From: Prochlorococcus sp. AG-355-A09
GTDB lineage: Bacteria; Cyanobacteriota; Cyanobacteriia; PCC-6307; Cyanobiaceae
NCBI GenBank assembly: GCA_003280995.1
Contig: QCDG01000005.1
Coordinates: 44,956-108,955, forward strand
DNA: 64,000 nucleotides
Reading direction: 5' to 3'
In this document: piece after piece, positions 47,678 through 63,994 of the stretch
Layout: each line of letters opens with the position of its first letter
How positions within the stretch are numbered: position 1 is the stretch's first letter
Made by a program: the position numbers and the translations under genes
The notes under the pieces: model-generated
What the model was told of the DNA's origin: nothing
The model's database searches: none
Seen by the model: the letters and a program-made list of their open reading frames with translations, nothing else

Positions 47678-49768
47678 TTGAAAAAAATATTACTTTGGTC
47701 AAGTTCCCTTGTTTTATTTGGGTTTATAAATCCTATTTCATCAAGTTCTTTTTTAGAAATTAAAAATCAATTTGAAGATTCAGAAATTAGATTTAACAAA
47801 ATAAAATATGGAAACTATCCAAACTTAGTCTTTTTAGAAAAAAAAGAAGTTAAGAATATTAAAAATAATTTCAAACTACCTTTAGAGTTAAAGATATTTT
47901 TAAATGTTATACCAGAAAACTTAGCACTTGAATCTAATCCAAAAGATAAAATTTTTAGTGTTGATATTGATTCAAATACTCAATCGAGAATAGGGTCTAA
48001 GTTTATTGCTGAAGGTGATGTTTTAATTAAATCATCTAATGGAATAATGCGAGCTTCGAAATTTTCCTATGATAAAGAATTAGAAAAAATTATTATTGAA
48101 GGAAATATAGACTTTAAAACTGAAACGCAATTCTTAAAGGCAGAAACTATTGAATATGACTTTATTAAAAAAAGAGGATTTATTTTGAAAGCATTTGGTT
48201 CAATTGATTTTCAATCTCTTAATGATATTTTTGATTCTGAAAAGAGTAGTAATTTGAGTGAAAATTTTGAAAAAGATTTTCAAATAAAAAATGTTATTTT
48301 AGATAGCTCTTCTAATATTAAATTTAAAAAAAATGAGGCAGAAGTAAATGCTAAATTAAATCCAACAAAAAGAACTAGATTTAAGTCTGATAAGATAGAT
48401 ATCAATAACGATGTTTGGAGTGCATCAGAACTAAAATTAACAAATGATCCTTTTAACAAACCTCAATTAATAATTAATAATAAAGACTTTAGATTAATAA
48501 GAAAAAATAACGATACTAAAATAAAAACAAAATGGTCTAGTTTAACTTTTGAAGATAAGTTAACGATTCCAATTGGACCAAGAAATATTAATCTTGATAG
48601 TGAAAGTTATTTTAGATGGGGATTAGCATACGATAAGCAAAAATATGACGGATTATCTATTTACAGAAATTTTGACCCTTTATTCTTTGGCGATCAAGAG
48701 AGAACTAAATTTGATTTTCTTGGTAAATTTAATATACAAAGGTTTTTAAGTGGTAAAACCCAAAGTTTTTCTCTTGAAAATGAAAATATTTTAGGGGATA
48801 AAATAGAACAAGATGCAAATATCCTAGATTTCTTTGGTTTAGATGCTGGGATAAATAGTTCAATTGAAAATTGGAATTTTAATTTAAAAGCTGAAACAAA
48901 TTCTCTTGATTATGAAAAATTAGATAAAGTTCTCGAGGGTAAAAGCTATCTAGCTAAAAACATTTATTCAAGAAATGATAATAAAAATTTTTCGAGTGGA
49001 GATATTGTCTTTTTTGGTACATTTCGAGAGAAAACTAATAATGGTTCTCTTGGGGAAATCTTAGTTAACAATTCATATGGTGTATTTTATGATTTTGAAT
49101 CTTATAAGAATGAAAAAAATTCTAATGTAACGAGAAATCTCTCTTTAGGTTATGGAAAATACGAAGCACCTTCAAGAATTAATTCTAAAAATCTTATTTC
49201 AAAACAGAGGTCAAATTTATCTATAAAACAAAAAAATGAATATGTTTTATGGCAACCTAAAATCCAAGAATTTTTAACTGAGGACTATAAATATAGTCCT
49301 TCAATAATAAATCAAGGCTTGTTTTGGCTCCTTGAAGGTAATGCCGATTTCTTCAGATATGATGATGGAAATAAACAGGATGTCATTTTAATAAAAACTG
49401 GCCCCAAATTAGTTTTGGGATATTTCAAGAAAAATTATTTTGACTATACTGAATTGCAACTTTATCCAAGATTTAAATTCAATAGGGGTAATAGTCCTTT
49501 CAGTTTTGATCAGGTTGTAGATAGTAGTGTTGTTGAATTCAATATTAAACAAAGATTATATAAAGCTTTAGCAGTAAAGTTTTCTGGTGATTTTAATTTA
49601 GAAAAAAATAATTCCAACGATCATTTTATTAATCCTACAATTGAAATATCATGGAACAGAAGAGCTTATAATATAAGCCTATTTTATAATTTAGATAGTG
49701 AGGAAGGGGGTATAAATTTTGATATATATTCCTTTAACTTTAGAGGCCTTGGTAGGAAATTTAAGTAA
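47678..49768 (+). CDS. DUF3769/LptD-like outer-membrane LPS assembly protein
   Basis: OstA-like repeats SKFIAEGDVLIKSSNGIMRASKFSYD...ILEGNIDF-type; beta-strand-rich C-terminus; TTG start. Confidence 0.75.
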   Translation: MKKILLWSSSLVLFGFINPISSSSFLEIKNQFEDSEIRFNKIKYGNYPNLVFLEKKEVKNIKNNFKLPLELKIFLNVIPENLALESNPKDKIFSVDIDSNTQSRIGSKFIAEGDVLIKSSNGIMRASKFSYDKELEKIIIEGNIDFKTETQFLKAETIEYDFIKKRGFILKAFGSIDFQSLNDIFDSEKSSNLSENFEKDFQIKNVILDSSSNIKFKKNEAEVNAKLNPTKRTRFKSDKIDINNDVWSASELKLTNDPFNKPQLIINNKDFRLIRKNNDTKIKTKWSSLTFEDKLTIPIGPRNINLDSESYFRWGLAYDKQKYDGLSIYRNFDPLFFGDQERTKFDFLGKFNIQRFLSGKTQSFSLENENILGDKIEQDANILDFFGLDAGINSSIENWNFNLKAETNSLDYEKLDKVLEGKSYLAKNIYSRNDNKNFSSGDIVFFGTFREKTNNGSLGEILVNNSYGVFYDFESYKNEKNSNVTRNLSLGYGKYEAPSRINSKNLISKQRSNLSIKQKNEYVLWQPKIQEFLTEDYKYSPSIINQGLFWLLEGNADFFRYDDGNKQDVILIKTGPKLVLGYFKKNYFDYTELQLYPRFKFNRGNSPFSFDQVVDSSVVEFNIKQRLYKALAVKFSGDFNLEKNNSNDHFINPTIEISWNRRAYNISLFYNLDSEEGGINFDIYSFNFRGLGRKFK

Positions 49769-53427: not shown

Positions 53428-54369
53428 TTATTTATATATTGCTTTTTGCTTTACTTTCTTTTTAATGGGTTTTAATCTTGACAATATTTGTCCTTGCCTA
53501 TCAAGAACTATGGCTATTAAAATGCAAAATCCAGAATTAAATATCAGCATCAATATTAATATAGTAGCTATTCCAGGTCCTAAGCTATTCCAAAAAAATA
53601 TTTTTCTGAAGATTGTTAATACTATTAATAGAAAACTAATACTTGTTAATATGAATGAGTAAAAACCTGCAAACCGTGGAATTCTGGTTGTATTTCTTAT
53701 TACTGTTTTCAAAGCCTCTTTTGTATAATCTATAAGGCTATAGGATGAGTTACCATCATTCCTCTCAGCGTGAAAATATTTAAATGACTTAATTTTGTTA
53801 GTTTGGGTTGGGAGAAGTATTCTTAAAGTTGGTTCTTCAAAATTGTTATCATTAAATCTATTTATTAAACTTCTTGAATATAATCCAAAGCCACTATACC
53901 TTGAGTTGAATTTTATGAGACCAAAGACCTTCAAAATTTTATAATAAATACCTCTTAGATACCACATTAAAATATTTTCTTTTTGGTGAGACTTTATTCC
54001 AATTGCTGCTTCATAACCATCTTCAAATGCTTCTGCAAATTTAAGTATTAAACTAGGAGGTTCCTGTAAATCTGCTGCAATTAAGCAAACAACATCCCCA
54101 GAACTTTTAAAGAGACCCTCAAGCGGGGATAAAATAGGCCCATAATTTTTATCATTAACATAGAGTTTTACATTATTATCTTTTTCTCTAATTGAAAGAA
54201 CTTTTTCTACTGTGCTGTCATCGCTGCAATTATCAATTATTAAGTATTCATAATCATCATATTTTGGGAACTTTTTTTTTAATTTATAAAATGATTTTAT
54301 ACTTTCTTGATAATGTTTTTCTATATTTAATTCCTCTCTAAAAGTTGGAACTACGAAACTAATCTTCAT
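53428..54369 (-). CDS. Glycosyltransferase family 2, GtrB/DPM-like with two C-terminal TM segments
   Basis: SFVVPTFREELNIE; LIIDNCSDDSTVE; LIAADLQEPPSLI; two terminal hydrophobic helices. Confidence 0.9.
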   Translation of the reverse strand: MKISFVVPTFREELNIEKHYQESIKSFYKLKKKFPKYDDYEYLIIDNCSDDSTVEKVLSIREKDNNVKLYVNDKNYGPILSPLEGLFKSSGDVVCLIAADLQEPPSLILKFAEAFEDGYEAAIGIKSHQKENILMWYLRGIYYKILKVFGLIKFNSRYSGFGLYSRSLINRFNDNNFEEPTLRILLPTQTNKIKSFKYFHAERNDGNSSYSLIDYTKEALKTVIRNTTRIPRFAGFYSFILTSISFLLIVLTIFRKIFFWNSLGPGIATILILMLIFNSGFCILIAIVLDRQGQILSRLKPIKKKVKQKAIYK

Positions 54370-54509: not shown

Positions 54510-55448
54510 TTAAGAAATATCTTTCATTGTTTCCTTTATTTGCGAGGTCAGTGTATTCGGTTCAATATTATAATTTTTTAATAAATTTATGAAATCTTTT
54601 GTATCACAAGAATAATTATTTTCCTCTAGCTTAAAATCAATATTTTCCTGAAATTTTGGTAAAGAATACATTTTAGTAATGTATGTTGCAAGTTCAATTA
54701 AATTTAGAGTTATGGATGCTGAATTAATTATGTTGCCAGATAGTTTTGTTTTATTTTCATCATTAAGCCAATTTATTCCTAACTTAGCTATGTCTGATGC
54801 AAATCCATAACTTCTAATTACATTATTTTTTGATTTAATTATTATTGATTTATTGCATTTTGCATTTAATAAAAAATTACCAAAAGCAAATAAGTTTGGA
54901 TCTTTTATGAATCTTCCAGAAAGAGCAAATATCCTCATTACTATTGAGTTTGATGTTGAAGATAATATTTTTTCTTCGCTATATTTTAAATATTCATATG
55001 GGCTATTAAGCAAATCATTTTTATTAGGAATTTTATTGTCAAAAATCCTAGCTGCGCCGGAAGATATTACTACTATTTCGGAATTTTTTGAACATTCTAA
55101 TAATTCAGCAACAGAAGAAGTAATACTTTTATTTATATCTATATAATTTTCAATTCCATACTCACTAATCTTTTCTCTTGTAAGAAATGCAGTATGTATT
55201 ATTTTCAGGTTATTTTTATTATCTATATATTCATTGATTGATTTAAGAGGAAAAATAGGAATGCTGATTTGATTCCCTGAATAGGCAGTGCTTTTTATTA
55301 CTGTTTTCTTGCTTCCAAATGCTAGAACACTTTTATTAAATAATTCGGCAGGATAGATTTTTTGCAGTTCATGAAGAAAATTCCTACCTACCCAACCTGT
55401 TGCGCCAGTAACTATAAAAAGACCTTTTTTAAAAAATTTATAATTCAT
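54510..55448 (-). CDS. NAD-dependent epimerase/dehydratase
   Basis: FIVTGATGWVGRNFLHEL; VVISSGAARIF; YEYLKYSEEKIL. Confidence 0.8.
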   Translation of the reverse strand: MNYKFFKKGLFIVTGATGWVGRNFLHELQKIYPAELFNKSVLAFGSKKTVIKSTAYSGNQISIPIFPLKSINEYIDNKNNLKIIHTAFLTREKISEYGIENYIDINKSITSSVAELLECSKNSEIVVISSGAARIFDNKIPNKNDLLNSPYEYLKYSEEKILSSTSNSIVMRIFALSGRFIKDPNLFAFGNFLLNAKCNKSIIIKSKNNVIRSYGFASDIAKLGINWLNDENKTKLSGNIINSASITLNLIELATYITKMYSLPKFQENIDFKLEENNYSCDTKDFINLLKNYNIEPNTLTSQIKETMKDIS

Positions 55449-56104
55449 TCTTTAAGGAATCTATCTAAATCAAGTGGTTTATTTATTCTGTGCATATCTT
55501 TAAAATTTATATTATTACCATAACCATAAGAAGCATATATAAATTCAAAACAGCTTTCTTTGGTAGCAAGATAATCTGATATTGTATCACCAACAAAATA
55601 TCTACTTATTTTTTTTTGTGTTTTTAGATCAATGTATCTAAGATAATTATTTTTAGACTTTACCACTCCCTCAGACCATTCTTTTATACATTCACTAGAT
55701 TTATCTGGACAAAAATATTTTTCAAAAAATTTATTTAGATTAAAAAATTCCAATGATCTACAAGTAATATTAAAAGGTTTATTAGTTAGGATGAATAAGT
55801 TGTTATCCTTTTTAAGAAGGCTAAGAACCTCTATCATTTTTGGATATACCTTATAATATTTATAACCTTCATTGTCATGATGAAGTCTAAATTCCTTAAT
55901 TATTTCTGAAATGATTTGATCATTAATATTTGAGTTTATTACTGATTTAAGATAACTTTTTAAAGGTGGGCCTATATAATTTTTAAATTCTTTCTTAGGT
56001 ATTAATTTTAGATTATATTTTTCACAAGCATAATTAAGCGAATAATAAATACCATCTAGACTATTAAATATAGTCCCATCAAGATCAAAACAAAAAATTG
56101 ACAT
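55445..56104 (-). CDS. HAD hydrolase (phosphoglycolate phosphatase-like)
   Basis: FCFDLDGTIFNSLDGI; LFILTNKP; YFVGDTISDYLAT. Confidence 0.9.
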   Translation of the reverse strand: MSIFCFDLDGTIFNSLDGIYYSLNYACEKYNLKLIPKKEFKNYIGPPLKSYLKSVINSNINDQIISEIIKEFRLHHDNEGYKYYKVYPKMIEVLSLLKKDNNLFILTNKPFNITCRSLEFFNLNKFFEKYFCPDKSSECIKEWSEGVVKSKNNYLRYIDLKTQKKISRYFVGDTISDYLATKESCFEFIYASYGYGNNINFKDMHRINKPLDLDRFLKE

Positions 56105-56116
56105 TTTTGTTTTGAT

Positions 56117-57220
56117 CTATTTACCTCTGTCGAGAATAAAGTTTCTCAAAGATTGGTTCTCTTGATACGGGCCATCAACGTCATCAATTGTTAACTTTTG
56201 GTCTATATCGATGTCCTTTATTAACTTTTCTCCATTAATTATTTCTCTACAAGATAGCTGACCTTTATGTAGTGGAATCGCCAAATAAAAATCTTCGTCG
56301 AAAGATTCTGAAGAAAAAACGTAACCTTTTTGTAAAGCTTTTTTTGAATAAACTCCTCTAACTAATTCATCAAGATATTTTCTTTCTTTGGATGAAACAT
56401 TACGTCTAGATGACGTTGAACCTCCAGACATCTCTCTTGCCTTATGAAAAGCCCTAAACCATGTATCAACTTGGTGAGGTAAAGAGCAATATTTTGAAAC
56501 AGGTACTTCCTCGTAATCAATATCTATATGCCTTTCCCATGTTCTTGCACCTTTCCCATAACTCAGAAGCATAGAATTCTCCCAATCAGTCATTTCATGT
56601 GTGGAAAACCCAATCACATGATTAGGATATCTATTTTTCAAGTAGTCTATTTGATTTAATTCTAGCTCTGAATCTTCAGATGGATAGAGTGATACACAGT
56701 GGTTTATAGCAAGAGGAATATTTCTATGTTCAAAAAACTTAACGCAATCATCAATATTTTTTTCAGTTGCCCCCCCAGTCGATATAATTACTGGCTTTTT
56801 TAAAGAAGCAATCTTTTCTAGCAATGGCCAAGTGGCTATATCGGAACTGGCTACTTTGATAATAGGCAAATCAAACGTACCACATAGTTGAACTGATGCC
56901 TCATCAAAAGGAGTTGCCATTGGTATACATCCGCAATTCACTACTTCATCAATTAAATCTTTAAATTCATCTATGGATAATTTAGTGGCTTCAGTTTTCT
57001 TAATATATCTTGATTCTGTAAAACCCTTAAATGAAGGATGTATAAATGAATCAACATCCCTAAATTGGAGTTTTATTGCAACCTTTACAGAGTTAACTCT
57101 TGCTACTGTTGCAAAATCTCTTACTATCTTCAGACCTCTCTCTAAATTGCCCCAATGATTATTGGCTAATTCAAGCACAAAAAGATTTTCGAAGATTACT
57201 CTATCATTTTGAGAAATCAT
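56117..57220 (-). CDS. NeuB/SpsE family nonulosonate-type synthase
   Basis: LELANNHWGNLERGL; AIKLQFRD; CIPMATPFDEASV; IKVASSDIATWPLLEKIASLKKPVIISTGGA; NHCVSLYPS. Confidence 0.88.
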   Translation of the reverse strand: MISQNDRVIFENLFVLELANNHWGNLERGLKIVRDFATVARVNSVKVAIKLQFRDVDSFIHPSFKGFTESRYIKKTEATKLSIDEFKDLIDEVVNCGCIPMATPFDEASVQLCGTFDLPIIKVASSDIATWPLLEKIASLKKPVIISTGGATEKNIDDCVKFFEHRNIPLAINHCVSLYPSEDSELELNQIDYLKNRYPNHVIGFSTHEMTDWENSMLLSYGKGARTWERHIDIDYEEVPVSKYCSLPHQVDTWFRAFHKAREMSGGSTSSRRNVSSKERKYLDELVRGVYSKKALQKGYVFSSESFDEDFYLAIPLHKGQLSCREIINGEKLIKDIDIDQKLTIDDVDGPYQENQSLRNFILDRGK

Positions 57221-57350
57221 AATTTTGAGTCTTTACTTAATCTCATAACATAATATCTTAACATATTTGTAAATTTACAAGTTCAAAAATACTATATAAA
57301 TTTTTGAGAATTTAGAAGATAGTTTGTTAAATATCTTTGAAATTTAAATT

Positions 57351-58625
57351 TTAATTTTTATCTTCTAAACATTTAATTATTGAATTTGGAACTTTCTCTT
57401 TGCTTAAAATAAACGAATAACGATAAGAGTAATTTTCTTTTAAAAATTCTATTGCTTTGATCGATATACCTCCCAGATCTCCACAAATTGTGACTCTCAT
57501 TTTTGAATTTTTAATGTGATTATTATCAATGAAATTTATGATTTTTATATATTGATTTAACCATAAGCAAATTAGTTTAATTGGAGAATAAGAACAAACT
57601 TTATTAATAGAAGTATAGACATTGTTTAAATATTTAAATTGTTGGGCATCAAAACCTGGGAAATATAAAAGAGAGGCATCATCAGATATAGATTTTTTGA
57701 AAATATCAATATTTAAAGAATAAAATGCTTCAATTAGATCCTTAAATGTATATTTTGTATTTTTGCAATAATCAGAAAAAATTCTTCCACATGGAATATG
57801 AGATATTACTGAAACTTTACCAACATTAGGATAATTTCGATAAAAAGCACTTTTTGATTTAAGTGATCCTTTAAATATTATTTGAGACCCTGTGCCCCAA
57901 TTTATTACTATATCTGAAATTGTTAATGAGGAATAGGTAGTTGCTTGTAAATCTCCAATCTCTGGGAATATCTTTATAGTATTCTTGATATTTATTAAAT
58001 TACTATTTTTAATTTCTAAAAAGGTATCTGAAAATTTATTTTTTTTATTTATTTTTTTAGTAATCATTTTTTTAGGCAAGCAAGTAGACTCCCAAAATTG
58101 AATTGATGCAGGAGTTTCGAAGTTAAAAAAATAATTAAAAATTAGTTGAAATGGTGTCAAAAAATTTTGTACTTTTATTTTATCTTTCATAAATATTTCT
58201 CTTATATTTTTTGTACTTAAATAATATTCCTTATCTTCAATTAAAATCTTATTAATAGGCATTGACAATAAAGTTGGCTGACCATTTTTAATATATATTT
58301 TGCTATTTTTGTTTTTATTTGGCATATCATTCCATGTTGATAAAAATGGCTCACCATTTTCAAGAATTCCTGCTAGACAATGCATTTGACAGCTACTTAA
58401 AACAAATACTTCTTCACTAGATTGACTAATTTCTTTTATAAAAAAATTTATTTCCTTTGCAATTTTTTTTAAACTTTTTTGTAAATAAAATTCAGGATTT
58501 GGATTTAAATCTTTTATGAAAAAATACTTTTCATTTGTTATTTTTTTATCTTGATTAAGACTCCATAATTTTAATCTAGTAAATCCCCAATCAATAATAA
58601 AATATCTTTTTCTTATTTCGTCCAT
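57351..58625 (-). CDS. FGGY carbohydrate kinase-like, sedoheptulokinase-like
   Basis: FIIDWGFTRLKLWSL; SSCQMHCLAGILENGEPFLSTWNDMPN; FPEIGDLQATTYSSLTISDIVINWGTGSQIIF. Confidence 0.65.
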   Translation of the reverse strand: MDEIRKRYFIIDWGFTRLKLWSLNQDKKITNEKYFFIKDLNPNPEFYLQKSLKKIAKEINFFIKEISQSSEEVFVLSSCQMHCLAGILENGEPFLSTWNDMPNKNKNSKIYIKNGQPTLLSMPINKILIEDKEYYLSTKNIREIFMKDKIKVQNFLTPFQLIFNYFFNFETPASIQFWESTCLPKKMITKKINKKNKFSDTFLEIKNSNLINIKNTIKIFPEIGDLQATTYSSLTISDIVINWGTGSQIIFKGSLKSKSAFYRNYPNVGKVSVISHIPCGRIFSDYCKNTKYTFKDLIEAFYSLNIDIFKKSISDDASLLYFPGFDAQQFKYLNNVYTSINKVCSYSPIKLICLWLNQYIKIINFIDNNHIKNSKMRVTICGDLGGISIKAIEFLKENYSYRYSFILSKEKVPNSIIKCLEDKN

Positions 58626-59791
58626 TCAATAAATTTTCCAATTGAATCTCTAATAGATTCGACAATCTCATTACTATTGGATGAGAAATAATGTTTATAA
58701 AAAATCATATCTCCTGGTTTATTTATAATAATAAGTGGCACACTTTCTCCATCTCCTTTTTTATCAAATTTAAACTGATCAACAATATCAGAGGGATTAA
58801 TATGATTTAGAAAACGAAAATCACCATTACATTCTTTTAAAGTAGATTTAATAGCTATTGAAATTTTTTGAAATATCTCTTCATTCATAAATTTCTTACT
58901 ACATGAAAACTTATTGGCAATTTGAATGCCTAACAAAACCGCTAAGCCATGAGGGATTTTGAAATTTGATAATTTTTCAATTGAATGGCCAAATGTATGC
59001 CCATAATTCATTGATCTTCTGACATCAATTTCATATTCATCAAAATCAACAACCGATTTTTTTATAGATAAAGATAATTTCAAAGCTTTTTCATAATCAT
59101 CTAAATTACAATTATTAGGTTCAATAATATATGGCAAGAGGTTTAAATATTCTTCAATAGCTGAGGACGAAGCAGTAATACAGAGTCTTAACATTTCGGA
59201 GAGACCAGCTCTATGTTCAAGGATTGGCATTGTATTTATTGTAAACATAGGGATAATTACTTCTTTAGGTGCTGAAAATAAGCCAAGGATATTCTTTGCA
59301 TTAGACGTATTCACAGCACACTTAGCCCCAACACATGAATCTAATTGCCCTAATGTGGTTGTTGGAAGATAAGAAAAGGGTTGACCTCTTCTAAATAATG
59401 CACATGCACATGCTGTAATATCTTGAATTATTCCACCTCCAATGGCTATAACCTTATTCCCTTTAGAAATATTTTCTCCAATAAATTCATTAATAAGTTC
59501 CAAAACAGTATCTAAGTTTTTATTTTCTTCTTTTGCTTCTACTGTAAAAATTATTGATTTTAAATCACTTGGGATTGGATACAGTTCTTTTACTTTTTTA
59601 TCTATGATAATAAAATCAGCAGTTCTTAAAAGAGAAATATATTGATCAATATTTTTTATGCAGGAAACATTATATTTTTTCGGAAACGAATTAATTTTAA
59701 AAGGAAAATCCTCAACTTCATAATTTAAAGAGCTGCCGTTTATTGAGTAATTCTCTATTTTTTTTTTGTTAATAGATGTTGATTTAGTCAT
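58613..59791 (-). CDS. Sugar-phosphate cyclase (3-dehydroquinate-synthase-like superfamily)
   Basis: AIGGGIIQDITACACALFRRGQPFSYLPTTTLGQLDSCVGAKCAVNTSNAKNILGLFSAP; MNYGHTFGHSIEKL; variant GLSEMLRLCI. Confidence 0.85.
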   Translation of the reverse strand: MTKSTSINKKKIENYSINGSSLNYEVEDFPFKINSFPKKYNVSCIKNIDQYISLLRTADFIIIDKKVKELYPIPSDLKSIIFTVEAKEENKNLDTVLELINEFIGENISKGNKVIAIGGGIIQDITACACALFRRGQPFSYLPTTTLGQLDSCVGAKCAVNTSNAKNILGLFSAPKEVIIPMFTINTMPILEHRAGLSEMLRLCITASSSAIEEYLNLLPYIIEPNNCNLDDYEKALKLSLSIKKSVVDFDEYEIDVRRSMNYGHTFGHSIEKLSNFKIPHGLAVLLGIQIANKFSCSKKFMNEEIFQKISIAIKSTLKECNGDFRFLNHINPSDIVDQFKFDKKGDGESVPLIIINKPGDMIFYKHYFSSNSNEIVESIRDSIGKFIEWTK

Positions 59792-60474
59792 GAGTCAAAA
59801 ATTCCACCACTTATCATACCACCATCAACTGTAATAAAAGTGCCAGTCTGATAAGGGTTTGTAGCTCTTATGTTATTTAACAAAACTTTGGACATTTCTA
59901 AAGGTGTTCCAAACCTTTTCTTGCCAATCCTTTTGCTTAACTCATCTTGCATTTCTTTAGTAAGGTTAGCAGAAGTTAATTTTGTTTTAAAAAATCCAGG
60001 CCTATATCCCATGAATTGGGTTTCTGGATACTCCAGCGCAAGACATTTGATTGATGCCTCTAAAGCATGTTTAGAAACTGAGTAAGGTAATCTATTTTTT
60101 CTTCCGTATAATCCATATAAAGAAGAAATAGCATGAACAGCATCTAATTTATTAGCGAGATTATTTTGAAGCAAATGTACGATAGAAATAAGTGAAACAC
60201 AATTTATGGAAAAATGATTATTGACTAGACAAATTAAATCTTCATTTTTAATATCATTTAATTCGATTTTTTTGTTTACTCCAGCAGCAAATAATAATTG
60301 ATTTGGTGCAAAAGAAATTATTTCGGAAATTAATTTTTGGCTTGGTGTTGTCTCTGACAAGTCCCATTGAGATCTTGTTATTTTTTGAATATTAATTCCT
60401 TCATATTTGTTATTTATAAGAGGTTCTATCAGGTCGCTACCTGCCCCAATAATTGTTAATTTAACCTGTTTCAT
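59788..60474 (-). CDS. Short-chain dehydrogenase/reductase
   Basis: ISSLYGLYGRKNRLPYSVSKHALEASIKCLALEY (YxxxK); TVDGGMISGG. Confidence 0.88.
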   Translation of the reverse strand: MKQVKLTIIGAGSDLIEPLINNKYEGINIQKITRSQWDLSETTPSQKLISEIISFAPNQLLFAAGVNKKIELNDIKNEDLICLVNNHFSINCVSLISIVHLLQNNLANKLDAVHAISSLYGLYGRKNRLPYSVSKHALEASIKCLALEYPETQFMGYRPGFFKTKLTSANLTKEMQDELSKRIGKKRFGTPLEMSKVLLNNIRATNPYQTGTFITVDGGMISGGIFDS

Positions 60475-60539
60475 AATGGATATTTAAATTTATTATTCAT
60501 TATTTTGTTTTCATAAGAATTATTGGAAGGTTTTTAAAA

Positions 60540-62381
60540 TTATATCTCAAATGCTTTTTTCTTTATCTTACTCATTATTTCATCTGAAAGAAAAGGAGCC
60601 ATGTCTTCTAATTCGGAAGTTAACATCGTTCCATCTTCTAGTTTTTTACTTGATAACTTTGGCTCGAAAACTTGTTCTAAATTAAGTTTTATTTCATGCA
60701 TTACTGGACCTTTTTCATTTAATGTCTTCTCTAATTGATTATTGAGGGTTAGCTCGTTATCACTATAAAAGTATTTAATATTAAATCCTTTTGATAATTC
60801 TTTAAAATTAGGGAAAGGTAATCCAGACTCTACTCCACATCCTACTGGAGTATTTGGAAAGTAATTCTTTTGGGTTTGTCTTATTGAGTGATATCCGTCG
60901 TTATTTAGAAGAAATATTTTTATTGGCAAATTCTTAGAGCCAATAATTGATAGCTCTTGTAAATTCATCATTAATGATCCATCTCCAGCAATACATATTA
61001 CTTCTTGCTTACTTGCATTAAAAGCACCTATTGCAGCTGGTATCTCATAACCCATAGATGCACAACCTGAATTATGGTAAATCCTTTGTCCTTTTTTAAT
61101 TTTAGCTGCTTGAAAGGTGACAACACAAGCAGTCCCATCAGCGCATACTACTATATCCTTAGGCTTTAGTTTTTCAAACAAAGAGTCAATTAGGAAGTAT
61201 GGGTTCACCAAATTTTTGTAGATTTGTTTGCAAGGTAAAGTGGCTGGGTATTCTTCTAAGTTTTTTTTATTAAAAACTCTCCATTTTTCCCAATGAATCA
61301 TATGAAATTTATTGCTTAATTCATTCTCATAATCAATTAATCTTTTATCTAACTTTTCAAAAAATCCTTTAATATTAGATCTGATTTTTAGGTTTGTATT
61401 TAAAGTAGGTTTTTCTAATTCATCCTGATCAATATCTACATGACACCTCCAAGCATTTTTAGCAAAAGATTTCCAATTAAAACTTACTTGCCTTATATTT
61501 AATCGACACCCAACAGTTATCAAGCAATCTGAAAATTGTACTGCAAAATTTCCAGCTCGATTTCCAACTGATCCTGGTCTACCTGAGTAACAATAGTGAT
61601 CATCCCATAATAGATCATTACTATTCCATCCAGTTACTGTAGAAATTGGCCACTTATCAATAAATCTCAAAAATTCATCATATGCATCGCTCAATCTAAT
61701 ACCGTTTCCTACATATAACGTTGGCCTATGTGACTGAAGAATTTTTTTTGCTAACACATTAATTTCATCATCATTAACAAATGGTTCACTAAAGCCATTT
61801 TTCTTAGATATAACTTCAATTGGTTTCTCTAAAAGGTTTTTATATTTTTGGTCTAATAATGTAGATTGGACATCAATAGGAATGTCTATCCAAACTGGAC
61901 CTTTCCTTCCACTTATTGCTCTTAAAAAAGCAAAATCAATTACCTGTGAAACCAAATTTGGATCTTCGAGAATTATGGATTCTTTTGTTACTTTTTGAAC
62001 CATATGAATAATATCAACTTCTTGATCACCTAATTGTCTTAGATGGGGTCTGCCCGAATTCTTAACTAATGTTTCTCTTTTTGCTTGACCTGAAATAACT
62101 ATCATTGGAATAGAGTCTACATAAGCACCAAAAACACCATTAATAGCATTTATGCCGCCTGGCCCAGCAGTTACATTTACTATTGCAGGGAAAGATTTTA
62201 TTCTGGAATAACTTTCAGCAGCAATAGTACAGGCTTGTTCATGATGCAGACAGTGAACTTTTTTTTTAAACTCTATGCCGAAACTATCGTTAAGATGCAT
62301 GGATGCACCCCCAGTAACCATATAAACGTCTTCACAACCAAGAAACTTTAATCGTTTAGCAATGAAATCTGATACTCTCAT
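60540..62381 (-). CDS. Thiamine-pyrophosphate-dependent enzyme (acetolactate-synthase-like)
   Basis: VYMVTGGASMHLND; HHEQACTIAAESYSR; TAGPGGINAINGVFGAY; VICIAGDGSLMMNLQEL. Confidence 0.93.
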   Translation of the reverse strand: MRVSDFIAKRLKFLGCEDVYMVTGGASMHLNDSFGIEFKKKVHCLHHEQACTIAAESYSRIKSFPAIVNVTAGPGGINAINGVFGAYVDSIPMIVISGQAKRETLVKNSGRPHLRQLGDQEVDIIHMVQKVTKESIILEDPNLVSQVIDFAFLRAISGRKGPVWIDIPIDVQSTLLDQKYKNLLEKPIEVISKKNGFSEPFVNDDEINVLAKKILQSHRPTLYVGNGIRLSDAYDEFLRFIDKWPISTVTGWNSNDLLWDDHYCYSGRPGSVGNRAGNFAVQFSDCLITVGCRLNIRQVSFNWKSFAKNAWRCHVDIDQDELEKPTLNTNLKIRSNIKGFFEKLDKRLIDYENELSNKFHMIHWEKWRVFNKKNLEEYPATLPCKQIYKNLVNPYFLIDSLFEKLKPKDIVVCADGTACVVTFQAAKIKKGQRIYHNSGCASMGYEIPAAIGAFNASKQEVICIAGDGSLMMNLQELSIIGSKNLPIKIFLLNNDGYHSIRQTQKNYFPNTPVGCGVESGLPFPNFKELSKGFNIKYFYSDNELTLNNQLEKTLNEKGPVMHEIKLNLEQVFEPKLSSKKLEDGTMLTSELEDMAPFLSDEIMSKIKKKAFEI

Positions 62382-62503
62382 TTTATAATTGTTTGATTTT
62401 GGGAGAATCTATAAATAGATCTTGGATTGATTTCGGTATTTACGAATAAATAAATTTCTTTTTCTTTGAGAATCAAAGTAAAAAATATTTGGTATTAAAA
62501 AAT

Positions 62504-63994
62504 TCAGTTGAATTTTTTAATAAAATCATTGATTACTTTTATCTCAAAGTCAAGCATAGGCTTTGTTAAACCTGGATAAGTTCCAAGGAAAAGTGTATCA
62601 TTCATAATTTTATCAGATCCAGTAGTATCAGTTGCGACTCTAAATGCATTTGGATTATTTTTTTTAAATTCTAAAAATGCTGGTTGCCTAATTAAATTAC
62701 CTCCAAATAGCATCCTATTTCCTATTTTATTTTCATCTAAAACCTTAGCTAATTCTGTTCTTGTAAATGGGGCATCTGGCTTCACTGATAACTTGAACCC
62801 AAACCATGAGCAATCAGATTTGCAAGATGTATTATCCCAATAAAATCCATTTGTAATATCCCAACTTGTTGCATGAGTTGGCAGTGCAAAATCAATAAAA
62901 TCTTCTGAGGCAATTAATCCAGCTCTTAGATAATCCCAATTGACTTTTCTTTGTTGAATAAACTGAGGAAGTTTTTTAAGTTGAACTCTTCCAATTGCTG
63001 CTTGAATATCAAGAGGCTTTAAATTAAAACCTAAATGACTATAAGTATATTTATGATCATATCCTTTAGGAAGTTCTCCTAACTTCCAATCAAATCTCTT
63101 ATTACATGTATTATCAACACCACTTGGACACCAACAATCTCTGCCCCAATCCCGAAAACTTTCTGCAATAACTGCTAATTTCTGACTATTAACTATATTT
63201 ACTGCACCACCCTCACCCATGGTTAAGTGATGAGGGGGGTAAAAACTTTGAGTACTTATATCACCCCAAGTACCTGTCCACCTAATAACTTGATTTGGTC
63301 CGTCATTTAATCCAGGACTATTTTCATAAAAACCTAATTTATTTGCTTCCTCTTTAGGTATTGAATAACTACATCCAAGTGCATCACAATTATCTTCTAT
63401 AAGCCATAAATCATATTTTTTACAAAATTGTAAGACCATTGAAAGATCAAAAGGATTGCCTAATGCATGCGCCATCATTACTGCTTTAGTTTTACCAGGC
63501 TTGTAAGCATCTTCTAATTGTTCGCATTTAGCATTTCCTGTGACTGGATTAGCATCAATAAAAACAGGGACTGCGCCCACTTGTATTATCGGTGCAACAG
63601 TAGTAGGAAATCCTGCTGCTACTGTGATTACTTCATCTCCTTGACCTATTCTCTTGTCATTTAATTTGTGAGATGTTAGAGCCGAAATAGCAATCAAATT
63701 GGCACTAGAACCAGAATTAACGAGTAAGCATTTTTTTATGCCTAAGAATTCTGATAACTCCTTTTCCATTTGCATCCCTTCACTGCCAAGAGTCAACCAA
63801 AAGTCAAGTGTTGTAGAAACTGCCGCTATCACCTCTTCTTCAGTAAATACTCTTCCTGCATATGGGATGATACTACCTTCTTCCCATTCTTTTCTTAAAG
63901 TATCACCTTCTGGTCTAAAGGCTGAATGAACTTGCTTAGAATATGCTCTTGTTAAATCGAGGATTTCTTTTTTTAGACCTTTGGAGCTTTCCAC
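62504..63994 (-). CDS. rfbH: DegT/DnrJ/EryC1 family, RfbH/E1-type 3-dehydrase-like (PMP / iron-sulfur)
   Basis: SFYPPHHLTMGEGGAV (His replacing PLP Lys); RDWGRDCWCPSGVDNTCNKRF Cys cluster. Confidence 0.9.
   Translation of the reverse strand: MESSKGLKKEILDLTRAYSKQVHSAFRPEGDTLRKEWEEGSIIPYAGRVFTEEEVIAAVSTTLDFWLTLGSEGMQMEKELSEFLGIKKCLLVNSGSSANLIAISALTSHKLNDKRIGQGDEVITVAAGFPTTVAPIIQVGAVPVFIDANPVTGNAKCEQLEDAYKPGKTKAVMMAHALGNPFDLSMVLQFCKKYDLWLIEDNCDALGCSYSIPKEEANKLGFYENSPGLNDGPNQVIRWTGTWGDISTQSFYPPHHLTMGEGGAVNIVNSQKLAVIAESFRDWGRDCWCPSGVDNTCNKRFDWKLGELPKGYDHKYTYSHLGFNLKPLDIQAAIGRVQLKKLPQFIQQRKVNWDYLRAGLIASEDFIDFALPTHATSWDITNGFYWDNTSCKSDCSWFGFKLSVKPDAPFTRTELAKVLDENKIGNRMLFGGNLIRQPAFLEFKKNNPNAFRVATDTTGSDKIMNDTLFLGTYPGLTKPMLDFEIKVINDFIKKFN

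Follow-up and report, generated by a model that had tools for sequence, protein, structure and literature searches.

What is made by three overlapping genes of Prochlorococcus sp. AG-355-A09 that encode a kinase-like protein, a cyclase of the 3-dehydroquinate synthase (DHQS) superfamily and a short-chain dehydrogenase/reductase (SDR)? The genes lie in a stretch of 64,000 nucleotides (contig QCDG01000005.1, positions 44,956 to 108,955) that is here called the window and is part of a 1.52-Mb genome. A sequence-only reading had taken them for a C7-cyclitol module, in which the kinase would yield sedoheptulose 7-phosphate (S7P), the cyclase a valiolone- or gadusol-like C7 cyclitol ketone and the SDR the reduced cyclitol of a surface glycan. 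We found that the three genes belong to the centre of a longer unit with the conserved order RfbF-RfbG-RfbH-ThDP-SDR-cyclase-kinase-NeuB'-HAD-epimerase, where ThDP denotes a thiamine diphosphate-dependent enzyme. Judged from its genes, the chances are slightly better than even that the enzymes of this cassette form a 2-keto-3-deoxy acid as donor and join it to a CDP-4-keto-3,6-dideoxyhexose, the cyclase acting on a phosphate like 3-deoxy-D-arabino-heptulosonate 7-phosphate (DAHP) and not on S7P. The following genes of the unit are present in the window.

62504..63994, minus strand: RfbH, CDP-4-keto-6-deoxyglucose 3-dehydratase (NCBIfam PRK15407, 635.7 bits, cut-off 423)
60540..62381, minus strand: ThDP-dependent YerE/JanthE-like carboligase, 613 amino acids, with all three TPP_enzyme domains
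59788..60474, minus strand: SDR-type reductase paired with the cyclase, 228 amino acids (Pfam adh_short_C2, 50.8 bits)
58613..59791, minus strand: DHQS-superfamily cyclase or phospholyase (CYC), 392 amino acids (Pfam DHQ_synthase, 97.6 bits; DHQS_C, 81 bits)
57351..58625, minus strand: putative kinase-like protein of the actin/hexokinase/FGGY superfamily, 424 amino acids (low-confidence AlphaFold model, pLDDT 57.9)
56117..57220, minus strand: NeuB/SpsE-like 2-keto-3-deoxy acid synthase (NeuB'; Pfam NeuB, 130 bits)
55445..56104, minus strand: HAD phosphatase (Pfam HAD_2, 83.7 bits)
54510..55448, minus strand: NAD-dependent epimerase/dehydratase-fold protein (EPI), candidate final reductase (Pfam Epimerase, 40.8 bits)

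The three reading frames and their coordinates were as first described, and the overlaps are exactly 13 nucleotides between cyclase and kinase (58613-58625) and exactly 4 nucleotides between SDR and cyclase (59788-59791). The cyclase motifs GGGIIQD, SCVGAK, GHTFGH and GLSEMLRLC and the kinase motif GDLQATTYSS...NWGTGSQ were all found in the sequence, as was the Lys-to-Arg change in GLSEMLRLC, which corresponds to position 197 of the A. nidulans DHQS. Overlaps recur in the relatives, with -16/-4 in Prochlorococcus AG-402-K16 and -19/-4 in a freshwater cyanobacterium (L114). Since the gene order is unchanged in three lineages at 31-68% identity, a chance arrangement of the trio is ruled out. The boundaries proposed for the module, 57351-60474, enclose the right genes but are too narrow, because the unit extends at least from 54510 to 63994 and past the end of the contig. 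The proposed surface-glycan role fits the locus. RfbH, the ThDP enzyme, NeuB', HAD and the epimerase-fold reductase, the partners that best define the function of the trio, had been missed.

In the metagenome-assembled genome of the freshwater cyanobacterium, the ten genes RfbF-RfbG-RfbH-ThDP-SDR-CYC-KIN-NeuB'-HAD-EPI all lie on one strand. Prochlorococcus AG-402-K16, apparently our genome G034, which shares its genus with the window, has the same gene set with RfbFGH divergent on the other strand and the rest in the same order. The window contig terminates just upstream of RfbH, where the relatives carry RfbF and RfbG. Both of these scored above cut-off in locus L035, and RfbG and RfbH did so in L148. 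The protein identities across the relatives range from 31% for the kinase to 89% for NeuB'.

A second architecture, RfbFGH with SDR-CYC-ThDP-HpcH-EPI, is shared by another Prochlorococcus (G038, L038) and a distant cyanobacterium (G464, L148). The DNA identity of G034 and G038 is 91.7% in a stretch of 12.6 kb that contains RfbFGH and 83% in EPI. Between the RfbFGH side and EPI, no DNA similarity was found: 7.0 kb with HAD-NeuB'-kinase-cyclase-SDR-ThDP in G034 stand against 4.65 kb with SDR-cyclase-ThDP-HpcH in G038. At the protein level, RfbF, RfbG and RfbH are 97, 93 and 92% identical and EPI 78%, and the cyclase, SDR and ThDP enzyme 28-35%. The two Prochlorococcus genomes have exchanged precisely this cassette. 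We conclude from this pattern that the cyclase, SDR and ThDP enzyme move as a unit together with either HpcH or kinase-NeuB'-HAD, and that the putative acceptor-making genes stay in place, as does EPI, which lies outside the exchanged cassette.

RfbH is predicted to make the 3-deoxy 4-keto acceptor sugar. The ThDP enzyme has the catalytic HHEQ and GDG motifs, and its best match in the PDB is 8rph (294 bits), which is JanthE (PMC12188165), followed by 5ahk, deposited as acetolactate synthase II large subunit, with 196 bits. By sequence it is nearer to YerE/JanthE than to the acetolactate synthases and thus JanthE-like. It adjoins genes for a CDP-3,6-dideoxy-4-keto sugar, the gene neighbourhood that marks the YerE-like carboligases. 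In the reaction of these enzymes, a 2-keto acid is decarboxylated and its acyl group is transferred to the C4 ketone of CDP-3,6-dideoxy-4-keto-glucose. YerE itself uses pyruvate as donor, hydroxylated 2-keto acids are preferred by ErwE and the caryophyllose enzyme MMAR_2332, and the sugar structure is unknown for most of the YerE-like enzymes (PMC12247030). Caryophyllose is 3,6-dideoxy-4-C-[D-altro-1,3,4,5-tetrahydroxyhexyl]-hexopyranose (PMC5706390). For the unit, a 4-keto-3,6-dideoxy CDP-sugar as acceptor and branching of the YerE type are likely.

The nature of the donor was approached by comparing 63 cyclase loci, 15 with and 48 without a ThDP enzyme. Exactly one of HpcH (9 loci) or NeuB' (6 loci) was present in each of the 15, and HpcH was found in 0/48 of the others (Fisher 2e-7). 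SIS and cytidylyltransferase families occurred in 0/15 ThDP-linked loci versus 37/48 of the others (Fisher 6e-8); both p-values overstate the strength of the association, since related loci are not independent. HpcH was confidently modelled (pLDDT 89.9) as a class II pyruvate aldolase. NeuB-type synthases and HpcH/HpaI aldolases both form 2-keto-3-deoxy acids, which would explain why the two exclude each other. The window NeuB' has its best PDB match in the SpsE-type 3g8r (209 bits; sialic acid synthases, 79 bits) and remained below the cut-offs for sialic and pseudaminic acid synthases (TIGR03569, 117.5 vs 399.65 bits; TIGR03586, 113 vs 340.25 bits). It is the most conserved protein of the unit (76-89%), with 54-59% identity to the copies in ThDP-linked phage loci. 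We therefore propose with moderate confidence that the donor would be a 2-keto-3-deoxy acid from NeuB' or HpcH.

In the tree, the main-lineage ThDP-linked cyclases form one clade (ultrafast bootstrap, UFBoot, 100), with a value of 100 for the HpcH-linked and 86 for the NeuB'-linked group. Among the IMG/VR contigs, the SDR-cyclase pair was found with a ThDP enzyme and HpcH in L057, L064, L071, L072, L075, L079, L091 and L093, and with a ThDP enzyme and NeuB' in L045, L050 and L088. RfbH was above cut-off in several of the ThDP-linked phage loci. These groupings bear on the possibility that two sugars are made for the same glycan, a yersiniose-like sugar from pyruvate by RfbFGH, the ThDP enzyme and EPI, and an unrelated cyclitol or ulosonic acid by the kinase, cyclase, SDR, NeuB' and HAD. 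Such a division would agree with the use of pyruvate by YerE itself (PMC12247030) and with the many loci that have the SDR-cyclase pair and no ThDP enzyme. However, the ThDP gene was exchanged along with the cyclase and SDR genes while RfbFGH and EPI stayed, and the cyclase, SDR and ThDP enzyme are grouped again in the phage loci, so that two separate sugars appear rather unlikely.

A different set of IMG/VR contigs (L042-L054, L059-L063, L073, L076, L083-L085) carries the SDR-cyclase pair with a cytidylyltransferase (CTP_transf_3) and no ThDP enzyme. The companions are a SIS-domain protein, often a cupin and often a class III aminotransferase, and Lys197 of the cyclase is usually His. These phage loci are a separate, unstudied surface-sugar pathway.

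Is the cyclase itself an AroB? It reached 218.4 bits with the aroB model TIGR01357, below the cut-off of 305 bits. A second DHQ_synthase gene in the same genome (G000, C9:41261-42301) is identified by its position in the tree and its residues as the housekeeping AroB, and 9/9 other cyclase-bearing genomes tested had a second, AroB-like match. The AroB clade (UFBoot 91) excludes the window cyclase, which has a clade of its own; the clade of AroB, DOIS and others has a value of 99. The distinction from housekeeping AroB that the sequence-only reading had drawn is thus borne out, and filing the window cyclase as AroB was rejected on score and tree. The best NCBIfam model for the cyclase is TIGR04425, 'AroB-related putative sugar phosphate phospholyase (cyclizing)', with 265.2 bits. 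This is below the curated cut-off of 400 bits, which is reached in 0/266 genomes of the genus, and the name was not adopted. Since the scores of the housekeeping AroBs in the genus come close to this value (257-263 bits), the TIGR04425 score was dropped as evidence.

The DAHP pocket, taken as 11 residues of the S. aureus DHQS (PMC6262012), was mapped onto the 63 cyclase homologues and onto references. The window cyclase retains 10 of the 11 residues, and the sole change is Lys197 to Arg. Lys250, Arg264 and Asn268 are retained in 63/63 homologues and His275 in all but one. All four are lost in a close homologue of the A. variabilis DDGS (664 bits to 5tpr), in an EEVS-like paralogue and in three annotated S7P cyclases, and the EboD and DOIS references have lost Arg264 and Asn268. 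The window cyclase also falls outside the EEVS and DDGS clades, and filing it as an S7P cyclase of this type, as had been proposed, was rejected on tree and pocket residues. Since Lys250 and Arg264, which we take to be carboxylate ligands in DHQS structures, are retained with the rest of the DAHP pocket, the substrate probably carries a DAHP-like carboxylate.

The Lys197Arg change alone says little, because it is shared by a DHQS-family gene near a type II dehydroquinase gene on a plasmid of Streptomyces sp. NBC_00987 (L145:3004-4580), perhaps a secondary dehydroquinate route. Together with the retained pocket, the shared change would be in line with a redundant 3-dehydroquinate synthase for aromatic biosynthesis in the window. 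Yet this genome and the nine others have their separate AroB or AroB-like match, the aroB score is below cut-off and shikimate genes are absent from the cassette, which makes a redundant synthase very improbable. Two Prochlorococcus genomes (L039:6170-8769, L040:9362-12014) have a further DHQS-like gene next to genes for an SDR and a KdsB-like cytidylyltransferase. In the tree it groups with AroB, apart from the window cyclase, and its residue at the Lys161 position is Val. When plasmid and phage records were searched with the cyclase and the ThDP enzyme, most of the hits were AroB, annotated S7P cyclases or acetolactate synthases.

The kinase had been read as a sedoheptulokinase from its short motif. 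The window protein had no Pfam or NCBIfam match at E<=1e-3 and no PDB match at E<=1, and the 39-residue motif found nothing when used as a query against the PDB. An FGGY_N match (E=0.0026) was obtained with one homologue only and not with the window protein. The weak AlphaFold model (pLDDT 57.9) matches hexokinase/FGGY-type folds in a fold search, which suggests a fold of the ASKHA/FGGY type. Neither IMG/VR nor 389 other cyanobacterial genomes yielded a relative, so that the family is known from three copies of this operon only; with HAD set aside, no protein of the unit is more divergent than the kinase. Pfam, PDB and fold search thus give no support for a sedoheptulokinase.

This weakens the cyclitol route from S7P. 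In its favour, the cyclase does belong to the DHQS superfamily without being AroB, and a SIS_2-type protein stands beside many of the non-ThDP relatives (37/48 loci), so that a heptose-phosphate substrate is possible for the wider family; GmhA, which acts on S7P, is of this SIS_2 type. In the ThDP-linked loci, however, SIS genes were found in 0/15. Moreover, the window cyclase retains Arg264 and Asn268, which are lost in the S7P cyclases, DDGS, EboD and DOIS, as well as Lys250 and His275, which are missing from the S7P cyclases too. Nor can the kinase be identified as the enzyme that this route needs, and the linkage of RfbH, ThDP enzyme and NeuB' is left unexplained. We consider the cyclitol route quite improbable.

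In the SDR of the window, the catalytic YxxxK is retained and the N-terminal nucleotide-binding motif is altered to IGAGSD. Alterations of the TGxxxGxG motif (IGAGSD, IGSKSD or IGSGSD) were observed in the window (59788-60474), L035:12492-13181 and L114:9282-9968 and are restricted to the NeuB'-type cyanobacterial copies.

From these enzyme families we infer the substrates and the order of steps. RfbF, RfbG and RfbH would supply CDP-4-keto-3,6-dideoxyglucose as acceptor. The exchangeable set of HAD, NeuB', kinase, cyclase, SDR and ThDP enzyme is placed between the RfbF/G/H genes and EPI, and the acyl donor, a 2-keto-3-deoxy sugar acid, would be built by kinase, NeuB', cyclase, SDR and HAD. In the sister cassettes, the HpcH/HpaI aldolase would replace kinase-NeuB'-HAD for the formation of the carbon-carbon bond. 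The cyclase may perform the DHQS chemistry, NAD-dependent oxidation and phosphate elimination, on a phosphorylated and carboxylated DAHP-like intermediate; more tentatively, this would be the phosphorylated form of the 2-keto-3-deoxy acid itself, and the SDR would reduce the ketone left by the cyclase. The YerE/JanthE-like enzyme would decarboxylate the donor and couple the acyl group to C4 of the CDP-4-keto sugar. With EPI as candidate final reductase, the surface glycan would receive a branched higher sugar of the same class as erwiniose and caryophyllose. The carbocyclic sugars caryose and bradyrhizose were set aside as products, since their rings are without a CH2 of the kind left by DHQS chemistry.

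Whether the cyclase would close a ring is answered differently by two arguments. The ring closure of DHQS-type enzymes is reported to be largely spontaneous with little help by the enzyme (PMC7144000), which favours a carbocyclic product. On the other hand, the ThDP enzyme needs a 2-keto acid, and none is left once the ring is closed; this speaks for a lyase that does not cyclize. In this version of the proposed pathway, the enol would be protonated after oxidation, phosphate elimination and re-reduction to give an omega-deoxy diketo acid; the SDR would convert it to a 3,omega-dideoxy-2-ulosonic acid, and the ThDP enzyme would couple this acid to the CDP-4-keto sugar. Every gene would be used, and a DAHP-like C7 substrate would give exactly the side chain of caryophyllose, for which 3,7-dideoxy-2-heptulosonate would serve as donor. 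'Sugar phosphate phospholyase' is also the name of the curated model nearest to the cyclase. Against it stands the spontaneous closure of the enolpyranose, and we consider this version unlikely.

Several points weigh against the proposed donor pathway as a whole. The cyclases of the non-ThDP loci, with their SIS and cytidylyltransferase genes, retain Arg264 and Lys250 too, so the retention could reflect AroB-like ancestry. The cyclases of L038 and of L057/L072 fall outside the main ThDP-linked clade, which points either to several origins of the linkage to ThDP enzymes or to poor resolution of the tree at these positions. The rest of the assembly from which the window comes had no RfbF or RfbG above cut-off. 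A closed ring would use up the 2-keto group needed by the ThDP step, so that the place given to the cyclase in the predicted pathway is tentative, and the HAD phosphatase may draw on the same single phosphate as the cyclase.

Downstream of EPI, the window has one adjoining gene whose membership in the unit is uncertain.

53428..54369, minus strand: family 2 glycosyltransferase (Pfam Glycos_transf_2, 72.8 bits)

Its position is not matched in the relatives. The G+C content of the operon (54510-63994) is 29.3% compared with 25.9% over the first 53 kb of the window, in keeping with a recent transfer. A large surface-polysaccharide island occupies 7229-49768. It has nucleotide-sugar genes (a nucleotide-sugar dehydrogenase, Gmd, Fcl-like, GalE, RmlB-like, GMP/PMI) and genes for export and modification (Wza-like export, Wzc-like AAA_31 proteins, two AT3-SGNH acyltransferases), and a DUF3769 protein (47678-49768) adjoins the other island genes.

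If the proposed pathway is correct, it would show which genes provide higher branched sugars with their unusual 2-keto acid donors, and the DHQS superfamily would gain a clade with a probably new substrate. A surface-sugar cassette has been cleanly replaced between close Prochlorococcus genomes, and related modules are found on viral contigs. Because cell-surface glycans are the usual phage receptors, a diversifying role of the cassette under phage pressure is plausible. The fuller proposal, to which we hold only tentatively, is that a DHQS-like enzyme acts on the phosphate of a 2-keto-3-deoxy acid, either closing a ring or working as a non-cyclizing phospholyase with an omega-deoxy 2-keto acid as product, and thereby supplies the donor for YerE-type branching from an exchanged and phage-borne cassette, an activity previously undescribed in this superfamily.

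Compared with known systems, the cyclase resembles the EEVS and DDGS enzymes (ValA, 4p53; A. variabilis DDGS, 5tpr) in the superfamily fold and in the residues for NAD and phosphate elimination, but differs in its clade and in retaining Lys250, Arg264, Asn268 and His275. It shares most of the DAHP pocket with AroB, from which Lys197Arg, the separate clade and the operon set it apart, and it scores best with the TIGR04425 phospholyases (265 vs 218 bits for aroB) although below their curated cut-off. As in the sialic-acid-type sets, kinase, NeuB and HAD classes stand side by side, but the window NeuB' is SpsE-like and far from the sialic acid synthases. In the literature found on YerE-type pathways and caryophyllose, a DHQS-type cyclase was not mentioned; mycobacterial caryophyllose gene clusters lay outside this search. 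Like the pathways for yersiniose A, erwiniose and caryophyllose (YerE, ErwE, MMAR_2332, JanthE), the unit has RfbFGH-type genes for a 4-keto-3,6-dideoxy acceptor, a ThDP carboligase and an enzyme able to make a hydroxylated 2-keto acid. Unlike them, it adds a DHQS-superfamily cyclase and an SDR and, in the architecture of the window, also a kinase, NeuB' and HAD.

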